Below are positions 8,932-26,317 of a DNA stretch of 64,000 nt, one piece after another (position 1 is the stretch's first letter; every line of letters begins with the position of its first letter). This DNA comes from Bacteroidaceae bacterium. Its GTDB lineage: Bacteria; Bacteroidota; Bacteroidia; Bacteroidales; Bacteroidaceae. Where the stretch lies: positions 62,001 to 126,000 of the forward strand of contig JAGCPY010000054.1 in assembly GCA_017965425.1 (NCBI GenBank), given 5' to 3'. A program made the translations under genes and the position numbers. The notes beneath the pieces were generated by a model that saw nothing but the letters and a program-made list of their open reading frames with translations, was not told the DNA's origin and searched no databases.

Positions 8932-9606
8932 CTACAGCTGTGTCTTCTCCACCACCATACCATCGAGCAAGTTGATGATGCGGGTGGCGTAGGCGGCATC
9001 GCGCTGGGAGTGTGTCACCATGACGACGGTGGTGCCCTCAGCATTCAACTGCGTGAGCAGATCCATCACCTCCTTGCCGTTCTTCGTGTCGAGGTTTCCC
9101 GTGGGTTCATCGGCGAGGACGAGTTTGGGCTTCACCACCACGGCACGTGCAATGGCCACGCGTTGCTGCTGACCGCCAGAGAGTTGCTGCGGATAATGGT
9201 TGGCGCGATGACTGATGGCCATGCGGCGCATGATTTCGGTGACACGTTCCTTACGTTCGGCTGCAGGCACGCCGAGATACTTCAACGGCAGTTCGATGTT
9301 CTGTTCCACGGTGAGCTCGTCAATGAGGTTAAAGCTCTGGAACACGAAGCCTATTTGCCCGCGGCGCGTCAGTGTGCGCTGACGTTCCCGCAAGCCACCG
9401 ACCTCCACACCGTCGAGCCAGTAGTGCCCCTCCGTGGGATTGTCCAAGAGACCGAGGATGTTCAGTAACGTGGATTTGCCGCAACCAGACGGCCCCATGA
9501 TGGCGACGAACTCGCCGTCCTTCACTTCCATGTTGATGCCCCCGAGGGCAGTGGTCTCCACCATATCTGTGCGGAAGACCTTCTTGATGTTCTTGAGTTT
9601 AATCAT
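8932..9606 (-). CDS. ABC transporter ATP-binding protein (MacB/LolD type)
   Basis: A complete 224-residue ATPase subunit. The Walker A motif GPSGCGKST lies at residues 38-46, the signature LSGGQQQR near residue 141, and Walker B (LVLADEP) just after. The sequence groups with the MacB/LolD/FtsE class that powers mechanotransmission by FtsX-type permeases rather than transport through the membrane. It is the last gene of a minus-strand run that begins with the permease at 14655, and it is separated from the upstream permease by a 184-bp spacer that holds an inverted repeat. Its partners are most likely the two large permeases upstream. Confidence 0.95.
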   Translation of the reverse strand: MIKLKNIKKVFRTDMVETTALGGINMEVKDGEFVAIMGPSGCGKSTLLNILGLLDNPTEGHYWLDGVEVGGLRERQRTLTRRGQIGFVFQSFNLIDELTVEQNIELPLKYLGVPAAERKERVTEIMRRMAISHRANHYPQQLSGGQQQRVAIARAVVVKPKLVLADEPTGNLDTKNGKEVMDLLTQLNAEGTTVVMVTHSQRDAAYATRIINLLDGMVVEKTQL

Positions 9607-9614
9607 AATAAAGG

Positions 9615-9778
9615 AAGACCCCCTCCCCGCTCCCCCTGTAGGGGGAGAGTAGAATGTATTCGAGCGGCAGAGGATACAGGGTCATTGTTTATGGGGTTAA
9701 AGTGATAATAATTTATTGGATTGCAATTCTTGAAAGGTGACCACTCTCCCCCTTTAGGGGGAGCGGGGAGGGGGTCTT
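9615..9778. repeat. Inverted repeat pair, 36-bp arms, between ATPase and permease genes
   Basis: The arm at 9615-9650 and the arm at 9743-9778 are reverse complements at 34 of 36 positions. Each arm is itself a hairpin (CTCCCCC...GGGGGAG). A short extra piece, gagggggtctt, follows at 9780. Between the arms lie 92 bp without any gene. The pair could form a long stem in the transcript and thereby lower expression of the downstream ATPase gene, or act as a transcript-stabilising or repetitive extragenic element. Confidence 0.9.
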
Positions 9779-9790
9779 TGAGGGGGTCTT

Positions 9791-12148: not shown

Positions 12149-12276
12149 TTTATGAGTGAAAAATGAAAAGTGAAAAATATGAGTTACTCTTGTGGGGGAG
12201 AGCCTCGCTTCGCTCGAAAGCTGCGAGCCAGCCTTCTCCCCTCCCCAGGGAGGGACAGGGGGTGGGCTGTTGGTCT
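12149..12276. other. 128-bp spacer between the permease genes with low-complexity repeats
   Basis: The spacer begins with repeated gtgaaaaatgaaaag units (12153-12180). It continues with a C/G-rich inverted segment (gggggagag at 12195 and cttctcccctcccc at 12233) related in composition to the repeat at 9615-9778. No gene was seen. Confidence 0.6.
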
Positions 12277-14655
12277 TTATTCCGTCTTGATACTATTCAC
12301 CGGGTTCTCCGTGGCTGCCCGCCAGCCTTGGATGCAGACGGTGGCGAGGGTGATGGTAGAGACGGCGGAGAGGGCGAGGGGGAAGAGCCACCAGTGGATG
12401 GGTGTGCGCTCGGCAAAGGATTGGAGCCACTGGGTGCCGAGGTAGTAGGCTGCGGGAGCGGCGAGGATGAAACTGAGGAGGATGATGGCGACGTAGCGGC
12501 GGGAGAGCAACAGGAGGATGGCCTCCTCGGTGGAGCCGAAGACCTTGCGGATGCCGATTTCCTTGCGGCGGTATTCGGTCTCGAAGAGCGTCAGGCAGAA
12601 GACACCGATGAGGGTGATGATGAGGCAGATGACCGAGAAGAGCAGCACCTGACGAATGAACCGCAGTTCCTCCTGATAGGTGATTTCCAAGTCTTGGTCG
12701 ATGAAGCGCACTTCGGGCTGCTCTTCAAGGCCAAGTCCTGTCAGGCTCTCAGTAATCATGCGGCGCAGTTGCACCTTATCGGTGCCTGCGGTAGTACGAA
12801 TAAACATATAATTATATGCCCCGAAATCCTGATCATTCTCGTCATAGGCGATGAAGGCCATGGGCTTCTGCGTGCGGTCGGCACGGGCGGTACTGAAACG
12901 GAGGTCGGTGCACACACCCACGACATTACCCATGTCGCTGAGCAGCGGCTTGTCCATCTCCACCCAGTTCCAGGCGCGGCGGCCCGCTTCGTTGATGATG
13001 AACACTTGGTGGTCATGCTGGTTGAAGTCGCGTCCCTCGACGATACGGATGCCCATTGTACGCAGAAACTGCCACGAAACGGGGAAGACAGCCATGGTCT
13101 CTATCTGGTGATCGTCGTCGCCGCGGCCCCAACTCATGAAGCCGTTGCCCACGCCGAGGAGGAACTGCGAGTAGGCCACGTCCTCCACGCCCGACAACCT
13201 GAGCAGCTCGCCTTGCGCGGCATCTTTCTTCGCCCGGAGCTCATTGTTCAGCCTCACATAGAGTACTTCGTCCTTGTCGAAGCCGTAGTCAGAGGTGAAG
13301 AGGTAGTGGCTTTGCAGGTAGAGGATGGCGATATAAACGACCATGATGCAGGAGATGAAGAGTTGCAAGGCAATGAGTGCGGTGCGCAGCTGGCGGCCAC
13401 GGGGCGTGAGGCCTGCGCTGCCTTTCAGTGCCAAGGCGGGCTGGAACGAGGTGACGTAGAAAGCGGGATAGAGTCCGGCCACGATGCCAACGACTATGGC
13501 TAGCAGGACCGTCCACGCCAGCAGCGGGAGGTGGTTGTCGAGGTTGATATTGCCCACGGTGAGTTCGCCGATGAGCGGCCATTGTGTCAGCAGATAAGCC
13601 ACACCGACGGCGAGGACGTAGGCAGCAAGTGCCGTCGCCACCGTCTCGGCAATGAGCGAGCCGCGGATGCTGCCCAGCGTGCTACCGAGGACGCGCCGTG
13701 TGTTCACACCTTTGACGCGCATCGGTGCCTCGGCCAGGGTGAAGTTCAGGAAGTTGATGGCAGCCACGATGAGCAGTATCATGCAGGCTACGATGAGCAC
13801 GCCATCGACCAAGCGGTTGCCCTTGTCCACGCGGTCGTCCACGCCGGAGAAATAGGTCTCCGTCACAGGTGTGAGGCGGAACTGCATGGCACCGTAGGAG
13901 CCGCTGATTTTGTCCCAACTGTCCGCTCCCCACTGCGCGAGGACAGCATCGCGGAGCTTGCTGAAGTACGCCTTGCGAAACGCAGCAAGCACGGCTGCCG
14001 TGTCGGCCTCGGCGGTCAGGCGGACGTAGCAGTCGAAATTATAGTTGTTGAATGCCCCCAGGTCCCTGTCGCCAAAGTTCTCCACCACGGCGTTCTTGAA
14101 GCCGCAGGCCTCTGGGAAGTCGGCATAGACGCCGCGCACCGTGATGCTGTCCTGCCCATCCCATAGGGCGCGGCCTGCCACCTGCGTCTCATTATTAAAA
14201 TAGGTACGCGCGATGGACTCGGCGATGAGCACGCCACCCGTGTCGCCCTCGTCCCAATCCAATCGGCCGTCGAGGCAGCGGGGGTGCAAGGTGGTGAGGC
14301 CGTGGCTGTCCGTGGTGAGGAAGTCGAAGTGGAACTCCGAATCGCCACGCAGATAGCGGCGCTCATACCAGCCCGACTGTGCCAGCATCACGCTCTCCAC
14401 TTGCGGTACCGTGGCCAACTCTTCGCCAGCGAAGCGCGATGTATTGCTGCTCCAGCGGCCTTCGTTGTCCCCCCATAAAGAGGTGAGCTCAAAGCGGTAC
14501 AGCCGGTCGGCATCAGTAAGCTCGCGGTTGAAGCTGTGGTTGTACAGCACCTGTGTCATGAACAGGTAGAAGGCGGCGAAGGCTATGGTCAAGCCAAGGA
14601 GGTTCAGCGCGGTGGCGGTCTTGAAGCGGCGCGCCAGGTAGAAGAGAGAAGACAT
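12277..14655 (-). CDS. ABC transporter permease, two FtsX / MacB_PCD units (paralogue)
   Basis: A 792-residue paralogue of the neighbouring permease with the same plan: an N-terminal helix (about 15-35), a periplasmic domain, three helices (about 290-400), a fourth near 430-450, a second periplasmic domain, and three C-terminal helices. The FtsX motif YRRKEIGIRKVFGSTEEAI lies near residue 695. It is the first gene of the minus-strand export operon. A good -7/-33 pair lies at 14720-14751, and a palindrome shared with the tolC/response-regulator intergenic region lies at 14791-14809, which suggests control by the response regulator at 24854. The transported substrate is unknown; cell-envelope lipids, lipoproteins or antimicrobial compounds are possible. 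Confidence 0.9.
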   Translation of the reverse strand: MSSLFYLARRFKTATALNLLGLTIAFAAFYLFMTQVLYNHSFNRELTDADRLYRFELTSLWGDNEGRWSSNTSRFAGEELATVPQVESVMLAQSGWYERRYLRGDSEFHFDFLTTDSHGLTTLHPRCLDGRLDWDEGDTGGVLIAESIARTYFNNETQVAGRALWDGQDSITVRGVYADFPEACGFKNAVVENFGDRDLGAFNNYNFDCYVRLTAEADTAAVLAAFRKAYFSKLRDAVLAQWGADSWDKISGSYGAMQFRLTPVTETYFSGVDDRVDKGNRLVDGVLIVACMILLIVAAINFLNFTLAEAPMRVKGVNTRRVLGSTLGSIRGSLIAETVATALAAYVLAVGVAYLLTQWPLIGELTVGNINLDNHLPLLAWTVLLAIVVGIVAGLYPAFYVTSFQPALALKGSAGLTPRGRQLRTALIALQLFISCIMVVYIAILYLQSHYLFTSDYGFDKDEVLYVRLNNELRAKKDAAQGELLRLSGVEDVAYSQFLLGVGNGFMSWGRGDDDHQIETMAVFPVSWQFLRTMGIRIVEGRDFNQHDHQVFIINEAGRRAWNWVEMDKPLLSDMGNVVGVCTDLRFSTARADRTQKPMAFIAYDENDQDFGAYNYMFIRTTAGTDKVQLRRMITESLTGLGLEEQPEVRFIDQDLEITYQEELRFIRQVLLFSVICLIITLIGVFCLTLFETEYRRKEIGIRKVFGSTEEAILLLLSRRYVAIILLSFILAAPAAYYLGTQWLQSFAERTPIHWWLFPLALSAVSTITLATVCIQGWRAATENPVNSIKTE

Positions 14656-14719: not shown

Positions 14720-14751
14720 CAAAGGTACGTACAAATTCCCTTTACCTGCAA
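14720..14751 (-). promoter_or_regulatory. Promoter of the ABC permease operon
   Basis: On the minus strand TACCTTTG (14727-14720) matches the Bacteroidetes -7 element. A TTG (14751-14749, in CTTGCA) lies 21 bp upstream as the -33 element. Transcription would start near 14714, giving a leader of about 60 nt. Confidence 0.7.
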
Positions 14752-14790
14752 GACCTCCGTCCCACTTTCTGCTTCCGCAGATATAAAAAC

Positions 14791-14809
14791 GTCTAAAAAA
14801 TGGACACTC
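14791..14809. promoter_or_regulatory. Palindromic operator candidate, copy 1
   Basis: GTCTAAAAAATGGACACTC is identical at 18 of 19 positions to the site at 24751-24769. It is an imperfect palindrome (GTCTA, A-rich centre, TGGAC). It lies 63 bp upstream of the -7 element of the ABC permease operon. The spacing matches that of the second copy to its two promoters. Confidence 0.7.
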
Positions 14810-14854
14810 CTCCCTACACGCCGCCCATCAAAAAAACATTTTTTAACTTGAAAA

Positions 14855-14893
14855 AGAGCGCACCTGTCACCAATCCGTGACGGGTGCGCTCTT
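14855..14893 (-). terminator. Terminator of the GH53-esterase gene
   Basis: AGAGCGCACCTGTCAC and GTGACGGGTGCGCTCT form a 16-bp stem with one mismatch and a short loop. Read on the minus strand it is followed by a T-run (TTTTTC). It lies just after the stop of the minus-strand gene at 14913. Confidence 0.8.
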
Positions 14894-14912
14894 GCAGATC
14901 CTGGAGCCCTGA

Positions 14913-17501
14913 TTACTTGAAGTTCTTGTGCTTGATGGTCCACTGGTCATAGCCCGTCAGGTCACCTCGGAGGAAGAGGGCTTCCGGCTCGCTCCTGCCC
15001 TTCAGTTGCCAGTCCAGCCAGGCGCGTACCATGCGTGCGTTGGCGCCGCCGAGGGGTTGTTCGTAGGTACCGCCATGGCCGCTCTGGGTGTTGTCGGCCA
15101 GAACCACAGGCACCTTCTTGATGGCATCATAGTCCATCTGTGCGTTCTGCCAGGCTACGTCCGTGGTGCCTCCGACGAGGTAGAGGATGGGGCCGTGAAG
15201 TTGCTTCAGGGACTGGGCACTCGCATCCGCCATCGTCATCTTGCCCATGCCGGCGTTGAGGATGAGGTAGGTCTTCAGACGCGGGTCAGCGGCATTGGCC
15301 AGCACCTGTGCACCGCCGCATGAATGACCCGCAGCGGCCATACGCGTCGTGTCCACCTTATTATAATATGGTGAGGCGGGGTCGGCAGCACGCTGGCAGA
15401 TCCAGTCGAGCGCCTTCTGCACCATCGACGACGGCGTGTGCTGATCCTTCTCATGCTGTGCCATCATCTGCAGTTCGCCGATGGCGACGACCACGTAGCC
15501 GTAGGAAGCCACCTCGGTGAGCATATTCTCATAACCGATGCTGGTGTCCATGCAGCCCCCGTTGCAGAAGATGAGCACGGGCAGCTGTTCACGCTTCACC
15601 TCGCCGCGTCCAAACATACCTCGCTGGCCAATATTCATGGCGGCATCCAGGTTCATAGGCCTATAGACCACGAAGTCCGGCAGCGTCTTCTCCCGCACGG
15701 CCACTGCCTTGAAGGGTCCGCTGCCGCCATACTCAGGCACCTTCATCTGCTCGAAGCTGACGCTGGGGTCGTCGTGCCGGAGGTGGCGTGCGAAGAAGGC
15801 ATCCAGCGCCGGACGGGTGAACTCCAGTTGCTGGTCGAAGGCTACGCTGTGCTGCCCGTGAACCTTCACATAATCCACCTGTGCACCAGCCCGCTGCATC
15901 TTCGTAACCCAGTCCTCGGTCAGATTGGGTCGCACGATGGGATCCTCGCCTCCTTGCAGCACGAGGAAGGGCGTCTCCGATGCTCCGATGTAGCCTATGG
16001 GCCACCACTCGGTGTGGTCAGCCCACTCGCCGGCGCGGCCGATCTCCGTAGGAGGAGCACCGCCTGCCGAGCAGGCGATGTCAGCCGTCAGACCCGCCAT
16101 GAGCGAGAGGTGTCCGCCGGCAGAGTGACCATAGGTGCCGATGCGGTTGGGGTCGATGCCCAGTTCTTCGGCATGCGACTTCATCCAGCGAATGGCGGTC
16201 TGCACGTCCTCGATGCATGCAGGCATGGGAGCTTCTTGCACCAGGCGGTAGTTCATGTTGCAGACGACATAGCCCTTCAGGGCATAGTCCACCATGAGGC
16301 TGCGGTACACCAGGTCGTTCTTCGACCCCGCGCTCCATCCGCCGCCGTGGATGATGAGGATGGCAGGGCGGTTCTTCTGCGGACCGAAGAGGGGTTGCGC
16401 CAGGTCGAGGACGCAGGACGGCTCCTGTTTATAATGGATATTCTCCGTGATGGTGATCTGCTGCTGGCTGGCCTCCACGAAGCCCTCCATGATGGCCGTC
16501 GGGGCGGCGTTGTGGTCGAAGGCTCCCAGCTTGTAGCCTCCGGGCAGGCATTGCGGTTCCCAGTAGAAGACACCGCGGCAGTGGCCGTTGGTGGCCGTGC
16601 GAGCCTCACGGATGACACGAGCCAACTGGCGGCGTCCCTCCTCCATCTTCTCCGGGTGCTGCTCGTCGACCTCAAAGCCGGTCTCCACAATCATCACGTC
16701 GCACCCATATTTCTCGCTGCAGTGGCGGATGTTTGCCATGCAGTCGGTGATGATTTGGTTGTCTTGTTCGGGTGTGCCTCCCTTGGTGGCCCAGTAGGGA
16801 TAGAGTGACATGCCTATCATATCCCACTTGCCTCCGTACTTCTTGATGATGTCGAGGTTCCAGTCATAGAGGCTCTGCTTGTGGCCCCGGTCAAGGTGTA
16901 CCAGGACCGTAGCCTGAGGGAACACCTCCTTCACGGCATCGTAGCCGGCACGTATGAACCCCGCATACTGCTTGGGATTCTTCTCGATATGTCCCATGGG
17001 CCACAGCAGGCCGTTGGCAGTCTCGTTGCCCACCTGCACCCAGCGCGGCGCGAGGTCGTTCTGCTTCAGCAGTGAGAGGACGTCGAGCGTGTGCTCACGG
17101 ACATCCTGCTGCATCTGTTTATACGAGTGTCCCTGCCAGGCAGCGGGGATGGGTTGTTTGCCGGGGTCGGCCCACGAGTCGGCATAGTGGAAGTCCACCA
17201 TGAGGTCCATGTCCAGCGCCTTCACGCGGCGTGCCATTGCCAGCAGTGTGTTCTTGTCGCAGTCTCCGCCCCGGGGATTGACCCAGACGCGCATGCGGAT
17301 GGCGGACATCTGGTAGTCGTTCTTCAGGAGCTCCAGGCACTCCCGTTCCTGTCCGTTGCGGTCGTGGAACTTCACTCCACGGCGTTCCTGCCCCGTGAGG
17401 AATCCCACGTCGGCTCCCTTCACAAAATCTTTTGTGGTACTCTGTGCGCCCGCCATCAGCGATAGCGCCAACAGCAATAGGGAAATCCATGTCTTTTTCA
17501 T
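14913..17501 (-). CDS. Three-domain enzyme: GH53 endo-galactanase fused to two alpha/beta-hydrolase esterase domains
   Basis: The 862-residue protein has a signal peptide (1-20). Residues about 24-345 form a GH53 endo-beta-1,4-galactanase: acid/base Glu160 in VGNE and nucleophile Glu273 in VETG. Residues about 360-575 form an alpha/beta-hydrolase with an HGGGW oxyanion motif (385-389) and nucleophile Ser460 in GHSAG, like acetyl- or feruloyl-esterases. Residues about 590-862 form a second alpha/beta-hydrolase with Ser727 in GHSCG, closer to the dienelactone hydrolase/chlorophyllase-like group. This suggests combined cutting and deacylation of (acetylated or feruloylated) pectic galactan. The full joint of three catalytic domains is unusual. 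A stem-loop terminator follows. The neighbours are a sensor-regulator and a second GH53. Confidence 0.9.
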   Translation of the reverse strand: MKKTWISLLLLALSLMAGAQSTTKDFVKGADVGFLTGQERRGVKFHDRNGQERECLELLKNDYQMSAIRMRVWVNPRGGDCDKNTLLAMARRVKALDMDLMVDFHYADSWADPGKQPIPAAWQGHSYKQMQQDVREHTLDVLSLLKQNDLAPRWVQVGNETANGLLWPMGHIEKNPKQYAGFIRAGYDAVKEVFPQATVLVHLDRGHKQSLYDWNLDIIKKYGGKWDMIGMSLYPYWATKGGTPEQDNQIITDCMANIRHCSEKYGCDVMIVETGFEVDEQHPEKMEEGRRQLARVIREARTATNGHCRGVFYWEPQCLPGGYKLGAFDHNAAPTAIMEGFVEASQQQITITENIHYKQEPSCVLDLAQPLFGPQKNRPAILIIHGGGWSAGSKNDLVYRSLMVDYALKGYVVCNMNYRLVQEAPMPACIEDVQTAIRWMKSHAEELGIDPNRIGTYGHSAGGHLSLMAGLTADIACSAGGAPPTEIGRAGEWADHTEWWPIGYIGASETPFLVLQGGEDPIVRPNLTEDWVTKMQRAGAQVDYVKVHGQHSVAFDQQLEFTRPALDAFFARHLRHDDPSVSFEQMKVPEYGGSGPFKAVAVREKTLPDFVVYRPMNLDAAMNIGQRGMFGRGEVKREQLPVLIFCNGGCMDTSIGYENMLTEVASYGYVVVAIGELQMMAQHEKDQHTPSSMVQKALDWICQRAADPASPYYNKVDTTRMAAAGHSCGGAQVLANAADPRLKTYLILNAGMGKMTMADASAQSLKQLHGPILYLVGGTTDVAWQNAQMDYDAIKKVPVVLADNTQSGHGGTYEQPLGGANARMVRAWLDWQLKGRSEPEALFLRGDLTGYDQWTIKHKNFK

Positions 17502-17744
17502 ACTTTCAGAGAGTTTTTTATGTGATATATGTCAGTTCTTGATGAGATAGCGGCGTCCGTTCCTGATTGAGACGCCTCCTTTCAGTGGCGTGAATGGGTT
17601 TGAAGCGTATTCGTGCTGCAAAGGTCGCAAAAAATACCCGATTAAGGTTGCACTATCCTAACAATCCATAGCAAAAATGTAACAAAATGCACCATCATCT
17701 CTCTTTTTATGACCATTCATGTCGCTCGCCCCTTATTTTTTTGC

Positions 17745-17752
17745 TACTTTTG
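17745..17752 (+). promoter_or_regulatory. -7 promoter element of the galactan regulator
   Basis: TACTTTTG fits the TAnnTTTG consensus. Transcription would start near 17758, so the micro-ORF and duplicated start region would be in the leader. A -33 match was not clear. Confidence 0.55.
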
Positions 17753-17764
17753 TCCCCTATTCGC

Positions 17765-17862
17765 CCATCAAGCATCCTCTCATGAAACCCAAATACAGCG
17801 GTGACTGTGCTCAGCGGTTTCCCCGCTGACCTATCAAGCATCCTCTTATGAAACCCAAATAC
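17765..17862 (+). repeat. 32-bp direct repeat covering the regulator start codon
   Basis: Copies at 17765-17796 and 17831-17862 match at 30 of 32 positions and each contains ATGAAACCCAAATAC. They are 66 bp apart and frame a 34-bp insert that contains a perfect 7-bp-stem hairpin (TCAGCGG...CCGCTGA). Confidence 0.9.
17782..17829 (+). CDS. Possible 15-codon leader micro-ORF
   Basis: ATG at 17782 lies in the first copy of the duplicated start region and reads MKPKYSGDCAQRFPR before TGA at 17827-17829. It is in frame with the regulator start at 17848, 18 bp downstream. The first five codons equal those of the regulator. It might couple or dampen translation of the regulator, but it may also be only a relic of the duplication. 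Confidence 0.35.
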   Translation: MKPKYSGDCAQRFPR

Positions 17863-19767
17863 TGCTTCATCCTGCTCATCACCATCGTTCTCTTGCTTCA
17901 ATCCCTCTGTGCTCAAACGACCCAACGGCTGCAACTGCCCAATCTGGAGCAGTTGCCCTCACCGCGAGTGCTCTGCGTCGTCCAGGACGAAGAAGGATTC
18001 CTATGGTATGCCACGGAGGGCGGAGGTGTCTGTTGCGACGACGGGCGCCAGATGACAGTCTTCCGCAATGATGCCCGCCACCCCGACCTCCTTGGCAGCA
18101 ACAACATCGCCAGCTTGGCTGCGGCAGGAAGACACATCATTATCGGTTCCTTCCACGGAGCCTACGTTCTTGACAAGAGTGATTACAACATTCGACGGCT
18201 CAACGAGGTGGACGACAAACGAGTCGATGATGTCATGGTCACAAAGGATGGGCATTGGTGGATCACGGCCAATAAGAAAGTCTTTGAGTTCTCCTCCGAC
18301 GGACATCTCCTCAACACCTATCCCGCCGGCGACAAATACGTCTTCCGGCTCCACCAAGACTGCAACGGACGTATTTGGGCGTCCCAGTGGCAAGGCGGGC
18401 TACTGCAACTCACCAACGGACGCCTGCAACCTGCTCCATGGCCCCTCGAGGTCGCGCCTACGAACATGGCCGACAATCCCTCTGGAGAAGGACTGTTCAT
18501 CAGCACATTCGGCATGGGCACCGTTCTCTATCAACCCGACCAGACCACCGACTCAATTCTCACCCCGGCCTCCATGCCTTTCCACCAGGCCTTCTCCTTG
18601 GGTCACGAACGTTTCGACAACAACGGACGACTGCTCGTGGCCGACGGCATGGGGGACTGCTTCGTCCTTACGACCGCACCCCAGCAGCTCTGGTACCAGA
18701 CACCTTCCTTATCACCCTTTCTCGCGGATTCCCTGAGAGCTGCCAGAGGACTCTCTCAGCGTCCTGCCGCCTACACCTTCGATACCACAGGACGACTCTG
18801 GTTCAGCACAGGAAAAGATATACGCCGCCAGCAGCAACCCCTCGCGCTCGAAGAAGTCGTACTTCCAGATCTTGCCGACATCGCTGCAATGACCTTTGCT
18901 GCAGACGGTACTCTCTGGCTCGGAAGCATCTACGGAGTCATACACACCTTCAAGGAAGGCATCCTCAGCACCGACGATTACGCCTCCAACGAATACGGCG
19001 ACGCCATACTCGCCCTACAGACCGACAGCCTCCTGCGAATGCTTCTCGTTTTCGAGCACTACGTCCGACTCTATGACCCCCAGCAGCACACCCTACGCCA
19101 GCAGAGCCGCGAGGCTCCAGGTACCTACGTCATAGAACTCGCAGAGACTCGACCCTATCAGCGATGGAGCCAACCCGAGAGTAACATGGTTGTCGAGCGC
19201 CTGCCACGATGGCTCACGGCCTGGTGGATGTGCCTCATCTACCTAATCATCGTCGCATCGTTGCTGGCGCTGATGATACATTATTATATATTAAGAAAGC
19301 AACGCCGCAGGTTCCTCGAATCCATCCGGGAGGGTGTTCGGGAGGAACCTCTATCTCCACAAACGTCTGACCCTTCGACGCAAGACGAGGCAACCCCTCC
19401 CCTTAGCACCGAAGAGCAGTGGCTACAGAAGGCCATAGCCCTTGTCATGAATCATATCGACAAAGACGAATACGGATTGGAACAGCTCTGCAACGACCTC
19501 GCCATGAGTCGAATGACCTTCTATCGCAAAATACAGTCTGCCACAGGACAAAAGCCCTCGGAGTTCATACGCACCATACGCCTGCGCCGTGCTGCAGAGC
19601 TCCTGCGTGAAGGACGACTGTCCGTCACCGAAGTCAGCTATGACACGGGCTTCTCCTCCGTCAGCTACTTCAGCCGGTGTTTCCGAACGATGTATGGCGT
19701 GCCACCCACACAGTTTGGCAAAACGACCACCGCCGACGACCGTCGTCCCAAAGATATTCCTAACTGA
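17848..19767 (+). CDS. Membrane-bound sensor-regulator: beta-propeller sensor plus AraC-type DNA-binding domain
   Basis: The 639-residue protein begins with a signal peptide (1-23). Residues about 30-440 have repeated LWxATxGGGV-like and WxS(T/Q) motifs of two-component-regulator propellers. One membrane helix lies near 452-476, and the C-terminus (about 530-625) is an AraC-type helix-turn-helix ending in the family motif GVPPTQF. Hybrid two-component systems of Bacteroidota usually have about 1,300 residues with kinase and receiver domains; both are missing here, and so is a clear Y_Y_Y domain. It probably senses galactan oligosaccharides in the periplasm and controls the two flanking GH53 genes; this is inferred from position. 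The 3' end overlaps the convergent GH53 gene by 103 bp. Confidence 0.85.
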   Translation: MKPKYCFILLITIVLLLQSLCAQTTQRLQLPNLEQLPSPRVLCVVQDEEGFLWYATEGGGVCCDDGRQMTVFRNDARHPDLLGSNNIASLAAAGRHIIIGSFHGAYVLDKSDYNIRRLNEVDDKRVDDVMVTKDGHWWITANKKVFEFSSDGHLLNTYPAGDKYVFRLHQDCNGRIWASQWQGGLLQLTNGRLQPAPWPLEVAPTNMADNPSGEGLFISTFGMGTVLYQPDQTTDSILTPASMPFHQAFSLGHERFDNNGRLLVADGMGDCFVLTTAPQQLWYQTPSLSPFLADSLRAARGLSQRPAAYTFDTTGRLWFSTGKDIRRQQQPLALEEVVLPDLADIAAMTFAADGTLWLGSIYGVIHTFKEGILSTDDYASNEYGDAILALQTDSLLRMLLVFEHYVRLYDPQQHTLRQQSREAPGTYVIELAETRPYQRWSQPESNMVVERLPRWLTAWWMCLIYLIIVASLLALMIHYYILRKQRRRFLESIREGVREEPLSPQTSDPSTQDEATPPLSTEEQWLQKAIALVMNHIDKDEYGLEQLCNDLAMSRMTFYRKIQSATGQKPSEFIRTIRLRRAAELLREGRLSVTEVSYDTGFSSVSYFSRCFRTMYGVPPTQFGKTTTADDRRPKDIPN

Positions 19768-21542
19768 GACGGAGGAACCTGCCTCACTAACACTCCTCCC
19801 AACGTATAGACATCTATCATCACATCCTCGTCTTCTCCGAACCGCGAACCAACACCTGTTACATCGGTACCCGTGGGCAGGGCCTGACCTTCCAATGGAA
19901 AGACACGCAACGAGGATATTACCGGCAGACCCGCGGTGCTCGTGGCGACAAGTTCCAGCAGATGACTGCCGGGTTCTGGGATGGCGATGTCGAAGGACTG
20001 GTAAGCATCGGCATTCTTCAGGAAAAAGGCCTTGGAGATGCTGTCGCCGTCCAATCTCAACTCACCACCTCGCAGAGCCGGACAGCCATATTGGAATACC
20101 AGACGATAGGCGCCAGCCTCTGCCACGGCCAAGCCCCAACGTTCTATTCCACCCTTCTGGTCCCCGTTTTCCACGACACCTTCGTCCAGTAGCGCTGAAC
20201 GCCCTACAAAGAACGTCACCGTGTCACTCACCTGGGTGTACTTTGAGGTGTCTGTGGCTTTAGCCCAAGCCGTGTGAACGCCTAATGAAACGTCCTCCAG
20301 GACAAAGGGAATGGTGACCGTGCTTCCTATAGCACTCATATCTTCTGCCTTAAACGTTCCGGCTTTCTTCTTGTCCAGATGGAATTCCACCGATTGAATA
20401 CGGTTCTTACGCTGATGTTGCACGCGCGTCTGGAGTTCCACTTCTCCCTCATCTACACTCTGCCCCGCCGTCGGTGAGAGCATACGCACCTTCATCATCC
20501 AACTTACTTCCGTGTGCTTCACGCCCAAGAACGCATCCATCATCACCGTGGGTCGCCTCGTCGACTCGTCCCAGGCACCCATATCATAGCCGCCCATGGA
20601 TTCTGGTTCCCAGTAGAAGCAGCCCAGGTCCCCGTTCTTGATCATCCGGTTCATCACACCCGCTAAATACTGATTCCCCACTACAGCCTCCTTCGGATAG
20701 TGACCGGTCTCCACGACCATACAGGGGGTCTTGTAGCGGGACTTCAGGTCGTTGATGTTTGCCATCACCTTCGTGATCATCGTTGGTCCGTCCAGGTGGG
20801 ACCATCGGGGGTAGGCAGACAGTCCGATGATGTCCCACTTGGCACCATTCTTCTTCAAACCGTCGAAGATGTTTCGATAGAGCGAATTATCATGACCATC
20901 CGGCAGATGGACGATCACCTGCATCGTGGAGTCCACAGCCTTCACGGCATCGTAGCCCGCCTGAACGAACTTCGCGAAAGCTTCCGAGCCGCCCTGGTTG
21001 GTCTGCCCCACGGGGTACAGCATACCCCGCTTCGTCTCGTTGCCCACCTGCACCCACTTCGGCACCACCCCGGCTACCTTGATGGCGGTGAGCACATCCT
21101 TCGTGTGGTCGTAAACGTGCTGCGCCAGCGCCTCCACGGAATGGTCTGTCCATAACGACGGGATGGTCTGGTTCCCTGGGTCAGCCCACGTGTCGCTGTA
21201 GTGGAAGTCAATCATCACGCTCATCCCTTTCGCCTTCGCACGCTTGCACATGCCGACGACCTCTGCCTTGCTGCTGGCGCCGCTACCCACCGTCCACACG
21301 CGCAACCGCACACTATTGATGCCCTGTTCTTTCAGTATCTGAAGGATGTCTTTCTGCCGACCATTCTTGTCCAGCCACTTCGTGCCCCAGCCTTCCATCT
21401 GCGGAACGAAACTAATGTCTGCACCAAAGGCGAAGTCCAGCTCATGTGTCGAGCGGTTGAATAGCGTGTCTGTCACTGTGATGGCACGTACACCGAACGT
21501 CATCGCCATCAGAAGAATTAAAAGAGTAGCTCGTTTTGCCAT
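19665..21542 (-). CDS. Secreted GH53 endo-beta-1,4-galactanase with C-terminal accessory domains
   Basis: The protein has 625 residues from the chosen start. A signal peptide (1-20) precedes a GH53 barrel (about 33-345) with acid/base Glu169 (VGNE) and nucleophile Glu279 (VETG). An Ig-like domain (about 350-440) and a jelly-roll, CBM-like domain (about 445-560) follow. The tail contains VYTLGGVLVRQ and PYIVRK, as in Por-type secretion tails. A longer frame starts at 21584, but the -7 element at 21582-21589 excludes it; ATG 21542 starts a good signal peptide. The enzyme would cut pectic galactan. The last 103 bp overlap the 3' end of the regulator gene on the other strand, and both tails look authentic. 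Confidence 0.9.
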   Translation of the reverse strand: MAKRATLLILLMAMTFGVRAITVTDTLFNRSTHELDFAFGADISFVPQMEGWGTKWLDKNGRQKDILQILKEQGINSVRLRVWTVGSGASSKAEVVGMCKRAKAKGMSVMIDFHYSDTWADPGNQTIPSLWTDHSVEALAQHVYDHTKDVLTAIKVAGVVPKWVQVGNETKRGMLYPVGQTNQGGSEAFAKFVQAGYDAVKAVDSTMQVIVHLPDGHDNSLYRNIFDGLKKNGAKWDIIGLSAYPRWSHLDGPTMITKVMANINDLKSRYKTPCMVVETGHYPKEAVVGNQYLAGVMNRMIKNGDLGCFYWEPESMGGYDMGAWDESTRRPTVMMDAFLGVKHTEVSWMMKVRMLSPTAGQSVDEGEVELQTRVQHQRKNRIQSVEFHLDKKKAGTFKAEDMSAIGSTVTIPFVLEDVSLGVHTAWAKATDTSKYTQVSDTVTFFVGRSALLDEGVVENGDQKGGIERWGLAVAEAGAYRLVFQYGCPALRGGELRLDGDSISKAFFLKNADAYQSFDIAIPEPGSHLLELVATSTAGLPVISSLRVFPLEGQALPTGTDVTGVGSRFGEDEDVMIDVYTLGGVLVRQVPPSQLGISLGRRSSAVVVLPNCVGGTPYIVRKHRLK

Positions 21543-21581
21543 ACTTTCATGTCTTTTTGTTGGGTTATATAAAATCTGCGG

Positions 21582-21589
21582 CAAAGGTA
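21582..21589 (-). promoter_or_regulatory. -7 promoter element of the second GH53 gene
   Basis: On the minus strand TACCTTTG. Transcription would begin near 21577, about 35 nt before ATG 21542. No good -33 match at the usual distance was seen. Confidence 0.5.
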
Positions 21590-21801
21590 CGTCTTTTCTT
21601 GCTTCTGTCCTTTCACAAACATAACAAACTTATGTCCTTATGTAACATTTGGCTATTATGCAGCTTCATTCCAGTACCTTCCTTCGCGATAACCGGGTGA
21701 TGTGACTCCGTTTGTATACTTAAAGAATAGCCCTGCCACATCTCACGACGGAGCAGGGTTGATGTTAGAATTTACTAACTTATGTTGATGAAGTAGGTTG
21801 C

Positions 21802-23052
21802 TTATTTTATCTCTAATCGCTCGTTGTCGCCGAAGGCTTCGTAGCCGCTGGTGATGACGCGTTCGCCGGGTTCCAGACCTTCGGTGACTTCGTAGTACTG
21901 CGGATTCTGGCGGCCGATGCGGATGGTGCGTCGGAAGGCGGTGTGTCCGTCTCTGCTGAGGACGTAAATCCAGGTGCCACCCGTCTTCTGGAAGAAAGCT
22001 CCTCGCGGGATGAGCACAGCTTGCTCGGGCTGACCCAGTTCCAGATTGAGGTAATAGGTCTGCCCGCTGCGGATATTCGCTGGCCGCGTGCCGCGAAAGA
22101 CGAAGTCTGTGCGGAACTTGCCTTGTCGCACTTCGGGATAGACCTTGCGTACTGTCAATGAGAAGTTGGCCTCGCCACGGACGATATTGGCAGTGAGCCC
22201 GGCGCGCACACGGTCGATATAGTGCTCATCGACTTGTGCCTCTATCTTGAAATTACTTAGGTCGTTGATCTGCCCGATTTTCTGTCCGGCGGCTATGCTC
22301 TGACCCAGTTCCACGTCTAAGAGTCCCAGTTCACCGTCGATGGCAGCTCGCACCTCCAATTTATTCTTGCGTTCTCTCACGAGGACAACGTTCGTCCGCA
22401 TATTGGCCAGGTTGTCCTCCATCTGGTCCATCTGCACGCTGCGGTAGATGCTGTCCTGCTCGAGGCGCTGAGCGATGAGTCCCTGCTTGCGGGCGGCCAA
22501 GCGGTAGTCCTCCTGGCTCTGCACGAAGACCTCGCGGCTGATGAGTTTCTCGTTGTAGAGGCGTTCGTTCTGGCGGTAGGTGCGCAGCTTGCGCTCGGTG
22601 TCCATGGCCAACTGTGCTTGTTCGAGTTGGTTGTTGAGGCGGTCCTGCTGCATGGCCACCTGTGTGTTGCGCAGGAGGTTCTGCTTTTCGGCCAGCTCAG
22701 CTTCGGCGTTGAGGATCTGCAGGTCGAGGTTGCTGTTTCGCAGGCGGATGATGACATCGCCCTTGTGAACCATGCAGCCTTCCTCGGCCACGCGTTCAGT
22801 GACGATGCCGCCTTCCTCGGGCGAGAGCTGCACCACCTGAATGGGCACCACCTGTCCGCTCAGTCGCACATAGTCCTTAAATTCAGCAATGCGGACTTCG
22901 CTGAAGGTGAGTTCGTCGGTTTTGACGCGCAGTGTGGTGTCGTGGTTGCCGAAGACCAGCCATAGCGCAATGAGGATAACTGCCATGCCAGCGGCGAGGT
23001 AGGGGATGTGCTTGCGTTGCAAGCCATTGTGTGGAGTGATAGGTTTATCCAT
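21802..23052 (-). CDS. HlyD/MacA-type periplasmic adaptor (membrane fusion protein)
   Basis: This 416-residue protein has a single N-terminal membrane helix (about 18-34), a biotinyl-lipoyl-like half (GxVxxxxVxEGxxVxKGDVI, about 77-100), a long coiled-coil hairpin (about 110-235) rich in Gln, Glu, Arg and Leu, the second lipoyl half, and beta-barrel and membrane-proximal domains. Adaptors of this kind connect inner-membrane ABC or RND pumps with a TolC channel. The upstream gene encodes a TolC-type protein and the nearby ABC genes supply the pump parts. The gene lies 112 bp after the TolC gene, in a spacer of AT-rich repeated words. Confidence 0.92.
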   Translation of the reverse strand: MDKPITPHNGLQRKHIPYLAAGMAVILIALWLVFGNHDTTLRVKTDELTFSEVRIAEFKDYVRLSGQVVPIQVVQLSPEEGGIVTERVAEEGCMVHKGDVIIRLRNSNLDLQILNAEAELAEKQNLLRNTQVAMQQDRLNNQLEQAQLAMDTERKLRTYRQNERLYNEKLISREVFVQSQEDYRLAARKQGLIAQRLEQDSIYRSVQMDQMEDNLANMRTNVVLVRERKNKLEVRAAIDGELGLLDVELGQSIAAGQKIGQINDLSNFKIEAQVDEHYIDRVRAGLTANIVRGEANFSLTVRKVYPEVRQGKFRTDFVFRGTRPANIRSGQTYYLNLELGQPEQAVLIPRGAFFQKTGGTWIYVLSRDGHTAFRRTIRIGRQNPQYYEVTEGLEPGERVITSGYEAFGDNERLEIK

Positions 23053-23164
23053 AGGGGGGTGGAGTTTAAAGTATAAAGTATAAAGTTTAAGGTTTAAGGG
23101 CTTAATAGGTTAATAGTTTAATAGGTTAATAGTTTAATAGGTTAATGGGTTAATGGGTTAAAGG
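23053..23164. repeat. AT-rich repeated words (ttaatagg / ttaatggg)
   Basis: The spacer between tolC-like and adaptor genes has repeated agtttaa, aagtataa, ttaatagg and ttaatggg words in tandem. Similar words fill the short spacers at 25378-25432 and 30905-30957. No gene is present. Confidence 0.8.
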
Positions 23165-24550
23165 TCAAGGGTTAAGGCTCTTCCACAAGTTTTTTCCTTC
23201 GTAGTAGCGTCTTTGCATTTCCTTGATGCCAATCATCAGACGGGATTGCAGGAGGGCGGCGCGGGATTGCAGGAGGGTGGCAGAGGCTGTTTGCAGGTCG
23301 ATGGGCGATGCCAGTCCTTCGGAGAATTGCTGGCGGACAAGTTCGTAGGCAAGACTGTCGGCAGCTACTTTCAGCTTTCCCTGTAGGCTTTCCTTGCGGT
23401 AGGCCATGACGTCGAGTTGTGCTTGTCTGCGCAGGACTTCCAATTCAGTCTGTTTGGCGTCATACTGTTCCTTTGCGATGCGCAGGTTATTCTTGGCACG
23501 CCGTAAGCTCATCAACGAGCCAAGACGGTTAAAGAGCGGGATGGAGAGATTCAGGGAAACATACTCGCCCAGGTTGTTCTTCAGTTGCTGTCCAAATGGC
23601 GTTGTGCTGGGCATGTTGAGGTTTCGGAAGTAGGAAGAATTGATGCCGGCAGAGAGAGATAGGGTGGGGAAGAGTGAGGCACGAGAGGCACGCAGGTTGT
23701 GGCGGGCGGACTGCATGTTATAGAATGCTTGCGCAATCAGGGCGGACTCAGCATCACCCGTGGCAGCCTCACACTCCATAAAAGAGGTGGGGAAGAGGCT
23801 GGAAGTGAGAAAAAGGCTGTCGCTAGTCTTCCAATTCATTACTTCTTTCAGCTTCAGCATACAATTTTCCAACAGGTTCTGTTGTCTGGTTAACGTGAGC
23901 GCATCGGAGGCCTCTTGTGCTTTCATTAAAGCCACGTCAGCTGGACTTTTCATCCCCTCTTCCTCCATCACCTGTGTTCTGCGCCTCATCATCTGACTCT
24001 CGTGCAGTTTCTCGGCGGCCAGAAGTATGGCTTCCTGAGCATAGACGACATCGACAAAAGCCTGATACGTCTGCAAGGCCACCTGGTCGCGCTCGGCTTG
24101 CAGGGTCTTTTTCTGCATCAATACATCGGCGCGGGCGGCACGAAGCGCATGGAGGCGGTAGAGCCCATCGAAGACGGGCAACGATGCTGACAGCCCATAA
24201 CCATTATTAAAGGTACTCACGCTCGTGAACGTGTTCGTTTCCGGGTCAATGGCCCGACCAAAATTCCATTGCACGCCGGCAGAGGCTCCAAAACTGGGGA
24301 GGAAAGACCCAGCGGCCTGCATACGCGTTGCCTCTGCATTATCCAACGTAAGTTCTCGTTGCCGCAAACCATGACTGTGCTTCACTGCATACCGCATACA
24401 ATCTTCCACTGTCATGGAGTGTGCTTCCGTGAGGTCAGTCGTCTGGCCTTGCATATCGGCGACCATCACCATGCACATCCAGATGTAACAGCTCACCCTC
24501 TTAGGTGTTTTTATTGTTCTATCATGATGGAATGATTGTTCGATAGTCAT
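23165..24550 (-). CDS. TolC-family outer-membrane efflux protein
   Basis: The protein is about 461 residues from ATG 24550. It has two outer-membrane-efflux repeats with long Ala/Gln/Leu-rich helices and short beta-barrel strands, as in TolC. The start is uncertain. The long open frame begins at 24727, but a predicted promoter with -7 at 24681-24688 places the start downstream. ATG 24626 and ATG 24550 both remain possible; the latter puts a basic segment and a hydrophobic core (KRVSCYIWMCMVMVA) near the N-terminus as a signal peptide. The neighbourhood (adaptor, two-component genes, ABC permeases) marks it as the outer-membrane exit of the export system. It shares a 227-bp regulatory region with the divergent response regulator. 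Confidence 0.88.
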   Translation of the reverse strand: MTIEQSFHHDRTIKTPKRVSCYIWMCMVMVADMQGQTTDLTEAHSMTVEDCMRYAVKHSHGLRQRELTLDNAEATRMQAAGSFLPSFGASAGVQWNFGRAIDPETNTFTSVSTFNNGYGLSASLPVFDGLYRLHALRAARADVLMQKKTLQAERDQVALQTYQAFVDVVYAQEAILLAAEKLHESQMMRRRTQVMEEEGMKSPADVALMKAQEASDALTLTRQQNLLENCMLKLKEVMNWKTSDSLFLTSSLFPTSFMECEAATGDAESALIAQAFYNMQSARHNLRASRASLFPTLSLSAGINSSYFRNLNMPSTTPFGQQLKNNLGEYVSLNLSIPLFNRLGSLMSLRRAKNNLRIAKEQYDAKQTELEVLRRQAQLDVMAYRKESLQGKLKVAADSLAYELVRQQFSEGLASPIDLQTASATLLQSRAALLQSRLMIGIKEMQRRYYEGKNLWKSLNP

Positions 24551-24600
24551 GGAATGATGATTCCATGATGATGGAATGATGAATGCAGCTATGCGTTCCA
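24534..24600. repeat. Short repeats (catgatggaatgat) at the TolC gene 5' end
   Basis: The words catgatggaatgat, catggaatgatga and catgatgatggaatgatga follow each other between 24532 and 24583. They encode or lead into the first codons of the TolC-type gene and blur the choice of its start. They can fold into short hairpins. Confidence 0.7.
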
Positions 24601-24680
24601 AGCAAGAGGAATAGGTGTGAGACATGATGAAACTATTTTTAGTATGTAATCTGTTTAGGGGAACGTCTTGGTTTTTGCTG

Positions 24681-24711
24681 CAAAGGAAGAGTTTTCCTCT
24701 TATTCTTGCAA
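24681..24711 (-). promoter_or_regulatory. Probable promoter of the TolC-HlyD operon
   Basis: On the minus strand TTCCTTTG (24688-24681) is a one-mismatch -7 element and TTG (24711-24709, in CTTGCA) is at 20-bp spacing. It lies 61 bp from the palindrome at 24751. Confidence 0.55.
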
Positions 24712-24749
24712 GCCTCTTGAACGACAAAAGCGAATCTCAAGTAGCAAAA

Positions 24750-24769
24750 TGTCTAAAAAATAGACACTC
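24750..24769. promoter_or_regulatory. Palindromic operator candidate, copy 2
   Basis: TGTCTAAAAAATAGACA (24750-24766) is a perfect 6-5-6 palindrome followed by CTC. It lies in the divergent region of the TolC-type and response-regulator genes, about 60 bp from each -7 element. The nearly identical site at 14791 lies before the ABC permease operon. Confidence 0.75.
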
Positions 24770-24802
24770 TTTTACTCGAAGACGCACTTTTCCGTGGTGA
24801 AA

Positions 24803-24834
24803 TTTGGCCGTATGTGTCCTTGTGCCTACCTTTG
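24803..24834 (+). promoter_or_regulatory. Promoter of the response-regulator/kinase operon
   Basis: TTTG at 24803-24806 and TACCTTTG at 24827-24834 are separated by 20 bp, a full match to the Bacteroidetes consensus. Transcription would start near 24840, which leaves ATG 24854 as the first start. Confidence 0.85.
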
Positions 24835-24853: not shown

Positions 24854-25390
24854 ATGCAACACGGTACGATTCTTGTTTGTGACGATAACACCGACATCCT
24901 GACAGCACTTCAATATGCATTGGAAGATACGTTCCAACGCATCATTCAGCTCACACACCCCGAACAGTTGCTTTCGACCATGGCAGCAGAGACCGTAGAT
25001 ATAGTGTTGTTGGATATGAATTTCTCAATGGGCAGAAACAGTGGCTCTGAGGGCATCCAATGGTTGAAGACGTTGCGAGAAAGGCATCCGGATGTGCCTG
25101 TAGTGCTGCTTACTGCTTATGGTGACGTGCCTTTGGCGGTGCGTGCGTTGAAGAGCGGTGCCGCCGACTTCATCACTAAACCCTGGGATAATGACGACCT
25201 CATCCGCAAACTCACAGAAGTCTTGACAGCACAGCGGGAAGTGGCACCGTTGAACGAAGTGGAGCTGGCACATATTCGGAAGGCTGTTGACCGAGCCGAT
25301 GGCAATCTCTCGGTGGCAGCACGCATGTTGGGTGTTACGCGCCAAACACTTTATAATAAGCTCAACCGGGGGGTGAAGTTTAATGTTTAA
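24854..25390 (+). CDS. Response regulator: receiver plus Fis-type helix-turn-helix, no AAA+ domain
   Basis: From ATG 24854 the product has 178 residues. The receiver domain (about 5-125) shows the acidic pair Asp10/Asp11, phospho-acceptor Asp54 (LLDMNF) and the KPW lysine. A Fis-type helix-turn-helix (HTH_8) occupies about 135-172 (LSVAARMLGVTRQTLYNKL). The sequence is NtrC-like but without the sigma-54-activating ATPase domain, so it should regulate ordinary promoters. The histidine kinase follows 45 bp later. Likely targets are the three promoters with the shared palindrome at 24750 and 14791. Confidence 0.9.
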   Translation: MQHGTILVCDDNTDILTALQYALEDTFQRIIQLTHPEQLLSTMAAETVDIVLLDMNFSMGRNSGSEGIQWLKTLRERHPDVPVVLLTAYGDVPLAVRALKSGAADFITKPWDNDDLIRKLTEVLTAQREVAPLNEVELAHIRKAVDRADGNLSVAARMLGVTRQTLYNKLNRGVKFNV

Positions 25391-25435: not shown

Positions 25436-26317
25436 ATGATATCCCTCTATTTATTTGTAATCTTTTCCCTCCTCTTTCTCATTTTCTTTCTTTTTCTTTT
25501 CTTTCGCCACCAGCGCGGTCTTCGCCAGCGGGCTCATCTGATGCGTGAGGCCATTCGCAACCATGATTGGACATTCAATCTTAGTACGCGGGGTTTGACG
25601 AGCGGCGAACGTGCCATGCAGGATGCTCTGAACGATTTGGGACAGGTGATTCGACAGCAAGTCAGCCAAAGCGAGGTTGAGTCATGGGAACGGCTCATGC
25701 GCGTGCTGACACATGAAATCATGAATTCAACAGCACCCATCGCCAGCATCAGTCAGAGCCTCCTCCGTCGTGTTGATGTGCAGGGGACAGCTCTCGAGGC
25801 TGGCATCAGAAGCATTCACTCTACAGCCTCTCGCCTGACAACCTTCGTGGACAGTTACCGCAAACTTTCGCAACTTCAGCAACCTGTTCCACAAAACATA
25901 CGCCTCGCTACCTTCATTGGGGAAATCCAAAACCTGTTTCCAAACCTCACATGGGACATCTCTGGCTTTGACGAACAAACCATTTACGCTGACCCAGCCC
26001 TCCTGCAGCAAGTTGTCGTGAATCTGGTGAAAAATGCCGTGGAAGCTGGAAGCACAAAAATAAAAGTAGAAACTTCACCTGTCCATGTCTTTCCTACAGC
26101 CCTTTTCTTCTCTAACAACGGGGCACCCATTCCCGCTGAAGTGCGTGACACCATCTTCGTTCCCTTCTTTACCACTAAAAACAACGGAACAGGAATCGGC
26201 CTCTCGCTGAGTCGTCAGATCTTAGCACGCCAAGGTGGAATGCTGGAACTGATGGAACAACCACGAACAGGCTACACCACTTCCTTCTGCCTCTCCTTAC
26301 CCAACGGCTTGAAGTAA
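25436..26317 (+). CDS. Sensor histidine kinase with short N-terminus
   Basis: This is a 293-residue kinase. A single N-terminal membrane helix (about 3-23) is followed directly by a short linker and the dimerisation domain with phospho-accepting His93 (LTHEIMNS). The ATPase domain carries the N box (NLVKNAVEAG) and the G boxes (GTGIGLSLSRQI). No periplasmic sensor domain exists, so the signal probably comes from within the membrane or from a partner protein such as the ABC permeases. It forms a pair with the response regulator upstream. The gene ends 3 bp from the convergent DMT transporter gene. Confidence 0.92.
   Translation: MISLYLFVIFSLLFLIFFLFLFFRHQRGLRQRAHLMREAIRNHDWTFNLSTRGLTSGERAMQDALNDLGQVIRQQVSQSEVESWERLMRVLTHEIMNSTAPIASISQSLLRRVDVQGTALEAGIRSIHSTASRLTTFVDSYRKLSQLQQPVPQNIRLATFIGEIQNLFPNLTWDISGFDEQTIYADPALLQQVVVNLVKNAVEAGSTKIKVETSPVHVFPTALFFSNNGAPIPAEVRDTIFVPFFTTKNNGTGIGLSLSRQILARQGGMLELMEQPRTGYTTSFCLSLPNGLK

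Follow-up and report, generated by a model that had tools for sequence, protein, structure and literature searches.

In a 64,000-nt stretch of a Bacteroidaceae genome (positions 62,001 to 126,000 of contig JAGCPY010000054.1, assembly GCA_017965425.1; hereafter the window), the genes of an ATP-binding cassette (ABC) exporter lie in two separate groups near a two-component system, and one palindrome, TGTCTA-N5-TAGACA, accompanies all three predicted promoters. We consider it highly likely that this palindrome is the operator of the adjacent NtrC-like response regulator (RR), which lacks an AAA+ domain and would control the permeases, adaptor and channel of the exporter as well as itself from promoters of the -33/-7 type. 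Our computations cover where the sites lie, how they are spaced and conserved, how they covary with the RR, which domains the proteins contain, and where other families place the palindrome with TTGGCA; that the RR binds DNA, is phosphorylated by its linked kinase and activates, and which sigma factor is used, we infer from these.

The window holds two predicted operators, neither assigned to a strand. In what follows, gaps are counted in bp from the palindrome to the predicted -7 element, and arm scores are matches over the 12 arm positions of TGTCTA-N5-TAGACA. Operator 1 (14790..14806, CGTCTAAAAAATGGACA) scores 10/12 and belongs to the promoter of the permease operon. Operator 2 (24750..24766, TGTCTAAAAAATAGACA, that is, TGTCTA-AAAAA-TAGACA) lies between the divergent channel and RR promoters, is kept upstream of orthologous RRs, and is a perfect 6-5-6 palindrome, as a first-pass annotation of this DNA had noted. 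The 19-mers which that annotation had placed at 14791-14809 and 24751-24769, identical at 18 of 19 bases, are both there and differ at 1 of 19 bases; with 3 mismatches allowed, the window yields 2 matches and none of 100 shuffles yields any.

The Bacteroides -7 consensus is TAnnTTTG. Predicted -7 elements read TACCTTTG both for the permease operon (14720..14727, minus strand) and for the RR-kinase operon (24827..24834, plus strand), the latter 60 bp from operator 2. The element of the channel/adaptor operon, TTCCTTTG (24681..24688, minus strand), is off consensus, and its gap to operator 2, counted to CAAAGGAA at 24681-24688, is 61 bp; at the channel side the nearest relatives have TAnnTTTG at 61 bp from the site, where the window's own element deviates. 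Gaps of 61 bp for the TolC-type gene and 60 bp for the RR had thus been given correctly at first pass, whereas the permease gap, counted from the sequence to CAAAGGTA at 14720-14727, is 62 bp rather than 63. A predicted -33 region of the permease operon was read from the sequence as CTTGCAGG on the minus strand (14745..14752), and by eye a CTTGSAGG-like block is repeated in the permease promoters of relatives. Also by eye, these promoters share a second block between operator and -33, GACGTTTT followed by CAGAAAGTGGG or a close variant, with the window's own copy within 14755-14789 and others, for example, in L108, L109, L111, L112, L118, L130, L133 and L134.

Within the 3.73-Mb genome, it is the combination of palindrome and promoter that stands out. 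The palindrome followed after 57-68 bp by TWnnTTTG occurs three times, exactly at these three promoters, and not once in the control. GTCTAN5TRGAC by itself gave 7 matches per strand against 7 in the reversed control, and the genome-wide search for TGTCTAN5TAGACA that had been proposed at first pass returned 1 match against 1 in the control, which is uninformative as a count and reveals no excess of copies.

Related RR loci carry the same arrangement. Among 58 upstream regions of AAA+-less RRs, reduced to 46 by removing near copies, 24 of 46 hold a site of at least 10/12, whereas 200 rounds of shuffling gave 0.35 on average and never more than 3. A single TGTCTA consensus for all RR upstreams was rejected, as it missed 22 of the 46; eight of these have TGTATG or TGTATT palindromes, eight (L015-L022) a decayed TGTCTAATTATTTTAC-like site, and the rest neither or hybrids. 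The larger RR set, with palindromes of any class allowed, comprises 102 matches (90 different proteins), and 62 loci have a clear site, defined as pairing at 5 or all 6 of the arm positions plus an A/T-rich spacer. An exporter-side TAnnTTTG lies within 110 bp in 58 of these 62 loci. The 91 exporter-side gaps are strongly quantized: 39 at 49/50 bp, 5 at 60/61 bp and 42 at 72/73 bp (86/91 in the three classes), with 5 at other values. Of 48 distances between neighboring sites, 47 are 23 bp, the gaps of 49/50 and 72/73 bp being those of tandem sites, which are usual among the relatives. The single-site gap of 60-61 bp corresponds to the midpoint of a tandem pair (49 and 72), so the center of the array keeps a constant place relative to the promoter.

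At the permease promoters, we used the first 250 residues of permease 1 as a query, obtained 29 places in 22 of 101 genomes of the genus, and inspected 450 bp upstream of each. In all 12 rows that have a TAnnTTTG of their own (9 genomes, the window's included), the palindrome lies 61-63 bp upstream of it, with arm scores of 11/12 in seven, 10/12 in four and 9/12 in one. The remaining 17 rows show neither TAnnTTTG nor a site of at least 10/12, upstream sequence being absent for one and limited to 98 bp for another; by eye, several of them come after the end of an adaptor or ATPase gene, as operon-internal genes would.

The identity of the predicted binder is addressed by covariation. Across the 62 scored loci, residue 168 in the recognition helix of the RR follows base 4 of the operator: Asn or Ser accompanies TGTC in 38/38 cases, and Ala, Lys, Arg or Thr accompanies TGTA in 24/24. 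The mutual information of residue 168, 0.963, equals the label entropy, while the next column reaches 0.61. The window's own RR combines Asn168 with a TGTC operator. Residue 168 aligns with Lys90 of Fis and, in a manual alignment through the IYRKL pattern, with Arg427 of LuxO, which one report names among the critical residues (PMC11407668). On the receiver-domain tree, there are 5 switches of the operator label, and all 4 independent pairs are in agreement. Binding of the palindrome by the RR is supported by this covariation. Together with the conserved spacing, it also supports the first-pass proposal of a Fis-type RR bound at these sites and controlling its own expression as well as the permeases, adaptor and channel. 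As regards the TGTA class, TGTATGAN3TCATACA occurs at 34 places in 13 of 139 genus genomes versus 2 in the control. In ten stretches with this motif, 18 of 22 sites lie 49-50 or 72-73 bp from TAnnTTTG, one lies at 60 bp and three (L291) at neither; no exporter homologue was recognized in the stretches L293, L294 and L297.

A further line of evidence comes from regulators that have the AAA+ motor. Sigma54 promoters require an AAA+ activator. Of five AAA+ loci (L071-L075), four have TGTC-type palindromes upstream of TTTGGCAC elements, arranged in tandem at 22 bp in three, while L073 has no palindrome in 4.9 kb; most AAA+ loci from the window's own genus (L167-L175) likewise show no such site. 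A sigma54 expression demanding TTGC at -12 gave no matches beside the AAA+-locus palindromes and was abandoned; on reading those loci, the elements are TTTGGCAC or TTTGGCAT with other letters at -12. Across 393 genomes of the order, the palindrome followed after 42-70 bp by TTGGCAN6TTG occurs at 20 places in 10 genomes versus 1 in the control. The gap to TTGGCA is 52-55 bp in 20/20 and 54 bp in 15, and TolC, FtsX, ATPase or adaptor homologues lie downstream of 16 of the 20, the exceptions being L248, L250, L264 and L265. We take an AAA+ regulator to be the putative binder of these sites. The window's own genome has 0 matches to the palindrome-plus-TTGGCA pattern and has TAnnTTTG-like elements instead.

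In the receiver tree, AAA+-less RRs form two groups amid AAA+ ones, one of 86 rows (100/97) and a long-branched one made up of L067-L069. In both, the palindromes show the exporter-side gaps usual elsewhere, which for L067-L069 means 60-61 bp from TAnnTTTG. Counts of changes on the tree do not alone separate loss from gain. Two losses of AAA+ fit best, the placement of the second depending on the long branch of L067-L069. The system probably goes back to AAA+ regulators that act through this palindrome at the sigma54-type promoters of exporters of this kind, the direction being our reading of these data. On balance, we lean toward a wider scenario in which the exporter regulon switched promoter type: an NtrC-type RR would have lost AAA+, perhaps twice, while the operator stayed and the promoters passed from sigma54 -24/-12 to primary-sigma -33/-7 elements at quantized distances; among the motor-less RRs, the operator would then have moved between the TGTC and TGTA classes, in either direction, on several occasions, mostly tracking a single residue of the recognition helix.

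Several observations weigh against assigning the palindrome to this RR. The lack of clear genus-wide enrichment is one of them: across the 101 genus genomes, the loose composite occurs 39 times versus 33 in the control, no clear enrichment, and the strict TGTCTAN5TAGACA at 27 places versus 21 in the reversed control. Together with the background level in the own genome, the latter figures led us to reject the bare palindrome count as evidence. Since even the loose composite is close to its control genus-wide, it is the constant spacing, the A/T spacer and the position that carry the signal, not the raw count. Our follow-up of the strict copies covered the 16 of 27 with an A/T-rich spacer (at least 4 of 5 A/T), the remaining 11 having G/C-richer spacers. 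In favor of the assignment, fifteen of the 16 have a TAnnTTTG at 49-50, 60-61 or 72-73 bp and adjoin an RR or permease match, the permease match of L179 starting 1.2 kb further down; the sixteenth (G023) offers no more than a TAnnTTCG at a distance of 32 bp.

The covariation, too, has exceptions at its margins. Four independent pairs yield a sign-test value of 0.125 and cannot reach 0.05. The scored set excludes 28 of the 90 unique RRs, which have no clear site, and three excluded cases lean the opposite way; two of the labels used (L026, L221) are ties at base 4. Among the RRs left out, L051 and L055 have Asn168 next to weak sites with TGTATG-type halves, and several other Asn168 rows, such as L013, have hybrid sites with one TGTC and one TGTA half. 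For some Asn168 RRs (L023, L026), secondary tandem sites are of the TGTA type. The genome G059, 83% complete and with an Asn168 RR (L031), has four TGTATG sites near exporter genes (L290), all more than 300 bp from the RR; judged from these sites, it is a contradiction of the residue-168 rule unless it holds a second regulator. In a clade 70-77% identical (L015-L022, L199), the RR-channel site is degenerate or hybrid (such as CGTCTAATTATTTTACG), yet the permease sites are still strong. Sites also occur in G048, G004 and G506, whose incomplete assemblies yielded no RR lacking AAA+. Lastly, the gap on the RR's own side is variable, from 9 to 105 bp with common values of 9, 32, 59-62, 70-72, 82-84 and 93-95 bp, so the sign of self-regulation may differ between loci.

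How might the system work? In the reading we prefer, an RR dimer would recognize TGTCTA-N5-TAGACA through its Fis-type helix-turn-helix (HTH), with Asn168 helping to set TGTC specificity. The linked kinase would phosphorylate the RR, and the phosphorylated dimer would sit on the palindrome. Centered ~69 bp upstream of the -7 element, it would most likely activate polymerase carrying the primary sigma factor, probably touching it on one helical face, as gap steps of ~11.5 bp suggest. Three targets are envisaged, namely permeases plus ATPase, channel plus adaptor, and the RR-kinase operon, with the single site between the divergent promoters serving both. In BceAB-type systems, FtsX-type transporters report substrate; because the kinase has no Pfam sensor domain, the exporter itself might, by analogy, report its substrate here.

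A repressor model, with the RR bound to the palindrome holding down the exporter and itself until relieved by phosphorylation, would suit the eight cases in which the nearest RR-side site ends 9 bp from the -7 element and would cover the -33 region. Nearly all exporter-side gaps of 49-73 bp are far for simple occlusion, however, and elsewhere the palindrome lies 52-55 bp from sigma54-type elements, that is, at promoters needing an activator; we regard repression as improbable. That the palindrome also stands at promoters distant from the RR gene could mean that another regulator, for example the AraC-type one at 17848-19767 or a nucleoid protein, owns it and that RR proximity reflects hitch-hiking. 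This we judge very unlikely given that one recognition-helix residue splits the operator classes completely, although covariation was scored for RR columns only. Finally, A/T-rich promoter DNA might be palindromic by chance, in keeping with the background-level count of the bare palindrome; with no match to the 19-mer in 100 shuffles and with near-fixed, conserved spacing, hardly any weight can be given to this idea. Activation by the AAA+-less RR accommodates these observations best in our judgment.

Like RegA/PrrA/ActR-type RRs, the window's RR consists of a receiver and a Fis HTH without AAA+. The partner of those RRs is a RegB-like redox-sensing membrane kinase, whereas the kinase here is short, with HATPase_c only and no Pfam sensor domain. 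The structure 3rqi ('Response regulator protein') aligns with the own RR over residues 5-171, but the best receiver match among solved structures is 2qr3. The own HTH gives a weak, not significant match (E 0.84) to 1umq, the PrrA effector domain according to a table in PMC11407668. On a tree without any RegA sequence, the RR group nests among Bacteroidales AAA+ regulators. Receivers of these NtrC-family proteins are 40-53% identical to the own one, and 17 of the 23 examined have RQTLYN in their recognition helix; exporter genes from other families within the order carry the same palindrome class. The differences from them are the missing AAA+ domain and -7-type instead of TTGGCAC-type promoters. 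In Bacteroidia, sigma54-type promoters are enriched at FtsX-type permeases (COG0577), according to PMC12316311. The exporter itself shares MacB_PCD/FtsX permeases, an HlyD-type adaptor and a TolC-type channel with MacAB-TolC-type exporters. MacB has its ATPase fused to the permease, whereas here the ATPase is a separate 224-amino-acid gene product alongside two permeases of about 790 amino acids. Searches of the open-access literature, which leaves out most subscription journals, turned up no paper whose title or abstract deals with this operator or with exporter regulators lacking AAA+ in Bacteroidales.

Because a sigma54 promoter depends on an AAA+ activator, how a regulon comes to leave sigma54 is an interesting evolutionary question. 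The two states may be visible next to each other in this case, with the operator kept, the promoter type different, and the motor present or gone. The residue-168/base-4 code, combined with the fixed spacing, would allow regulons to be predicted from sequence in uncultured Bacteroidales and would connect the dispersed exporter genes of a genome with a single two-component system.

The genes concerned were assigned with Pfam. On the minus strand lie FtsX/MacB_PCD permease 1 (12277..14655, 792 amino acids; FtsX and MacB_PCD), permease 2 of the same type (9791..12148, 785 amino acids) and the ABC ATPase (8932..9606, 224 amino acids; ABC_tran), and in the other half the TolC-type outer membrane channel (23165..24727; OEP) and the HlyD-type periplasmic adaptor (21802..23052; HlyD_3 and HlyD_D23). 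The listed TTG start of the channel is upstream of its predicted -7 element, so the true start is probably further inside. On the plus strand, the RR (24854..25390, 178 amino acids) combines a receiver with the Fis HTH, Asn168 being in the recognition helix; Pfam over all 178 residues gives only Response_reg and HTH_8, with no AAA+ (Sigma54_activat) domain. The histidine kinase (25436..26317, 293 amino acids) has a short hydrophobic N-terminus and HATPase_c as its sole Pfam match, with none for a sensor domain.

The exporter halves are separated by two GH53 genes and by a regulator gene that matches Reg_prop and AraC-type domains. No site of at least 10/12 is present between 14807 and 24749, and a separate TACCTTTG belongs to the GH53 gene at 19665-21584, lying at about 21582-21589 on the minus strand. 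Membership of the galactan genes in the regulon thus found no support, and they appear to be bystanders. Other MacB_PCD loci of the own genome (L266, L267, L268, L271) show no site of at least 10/12 in ~3.6 kb each. The separation of the halves depends on lineage, since L045 has the ATPase and permeases directly after the kinase while L043, L044 and L182 retain parts of the intervening neighborhood. Compared with L045, the ATPase and permeases (8932-14655) are 92-93% identical, the RR 73% and the channel 63%, a contrast hinting at mosaic inheritance of the exporter. The regulator between the GH53 genes (17848-19767, 639 amino acids) combines a Reg_prop match with an AraC HTH, without a kinase domain match, and at 4454-7846 the window encodes a rhamnogalacturonan lyase (RGL11) with a C-terminal dockerin type I match.

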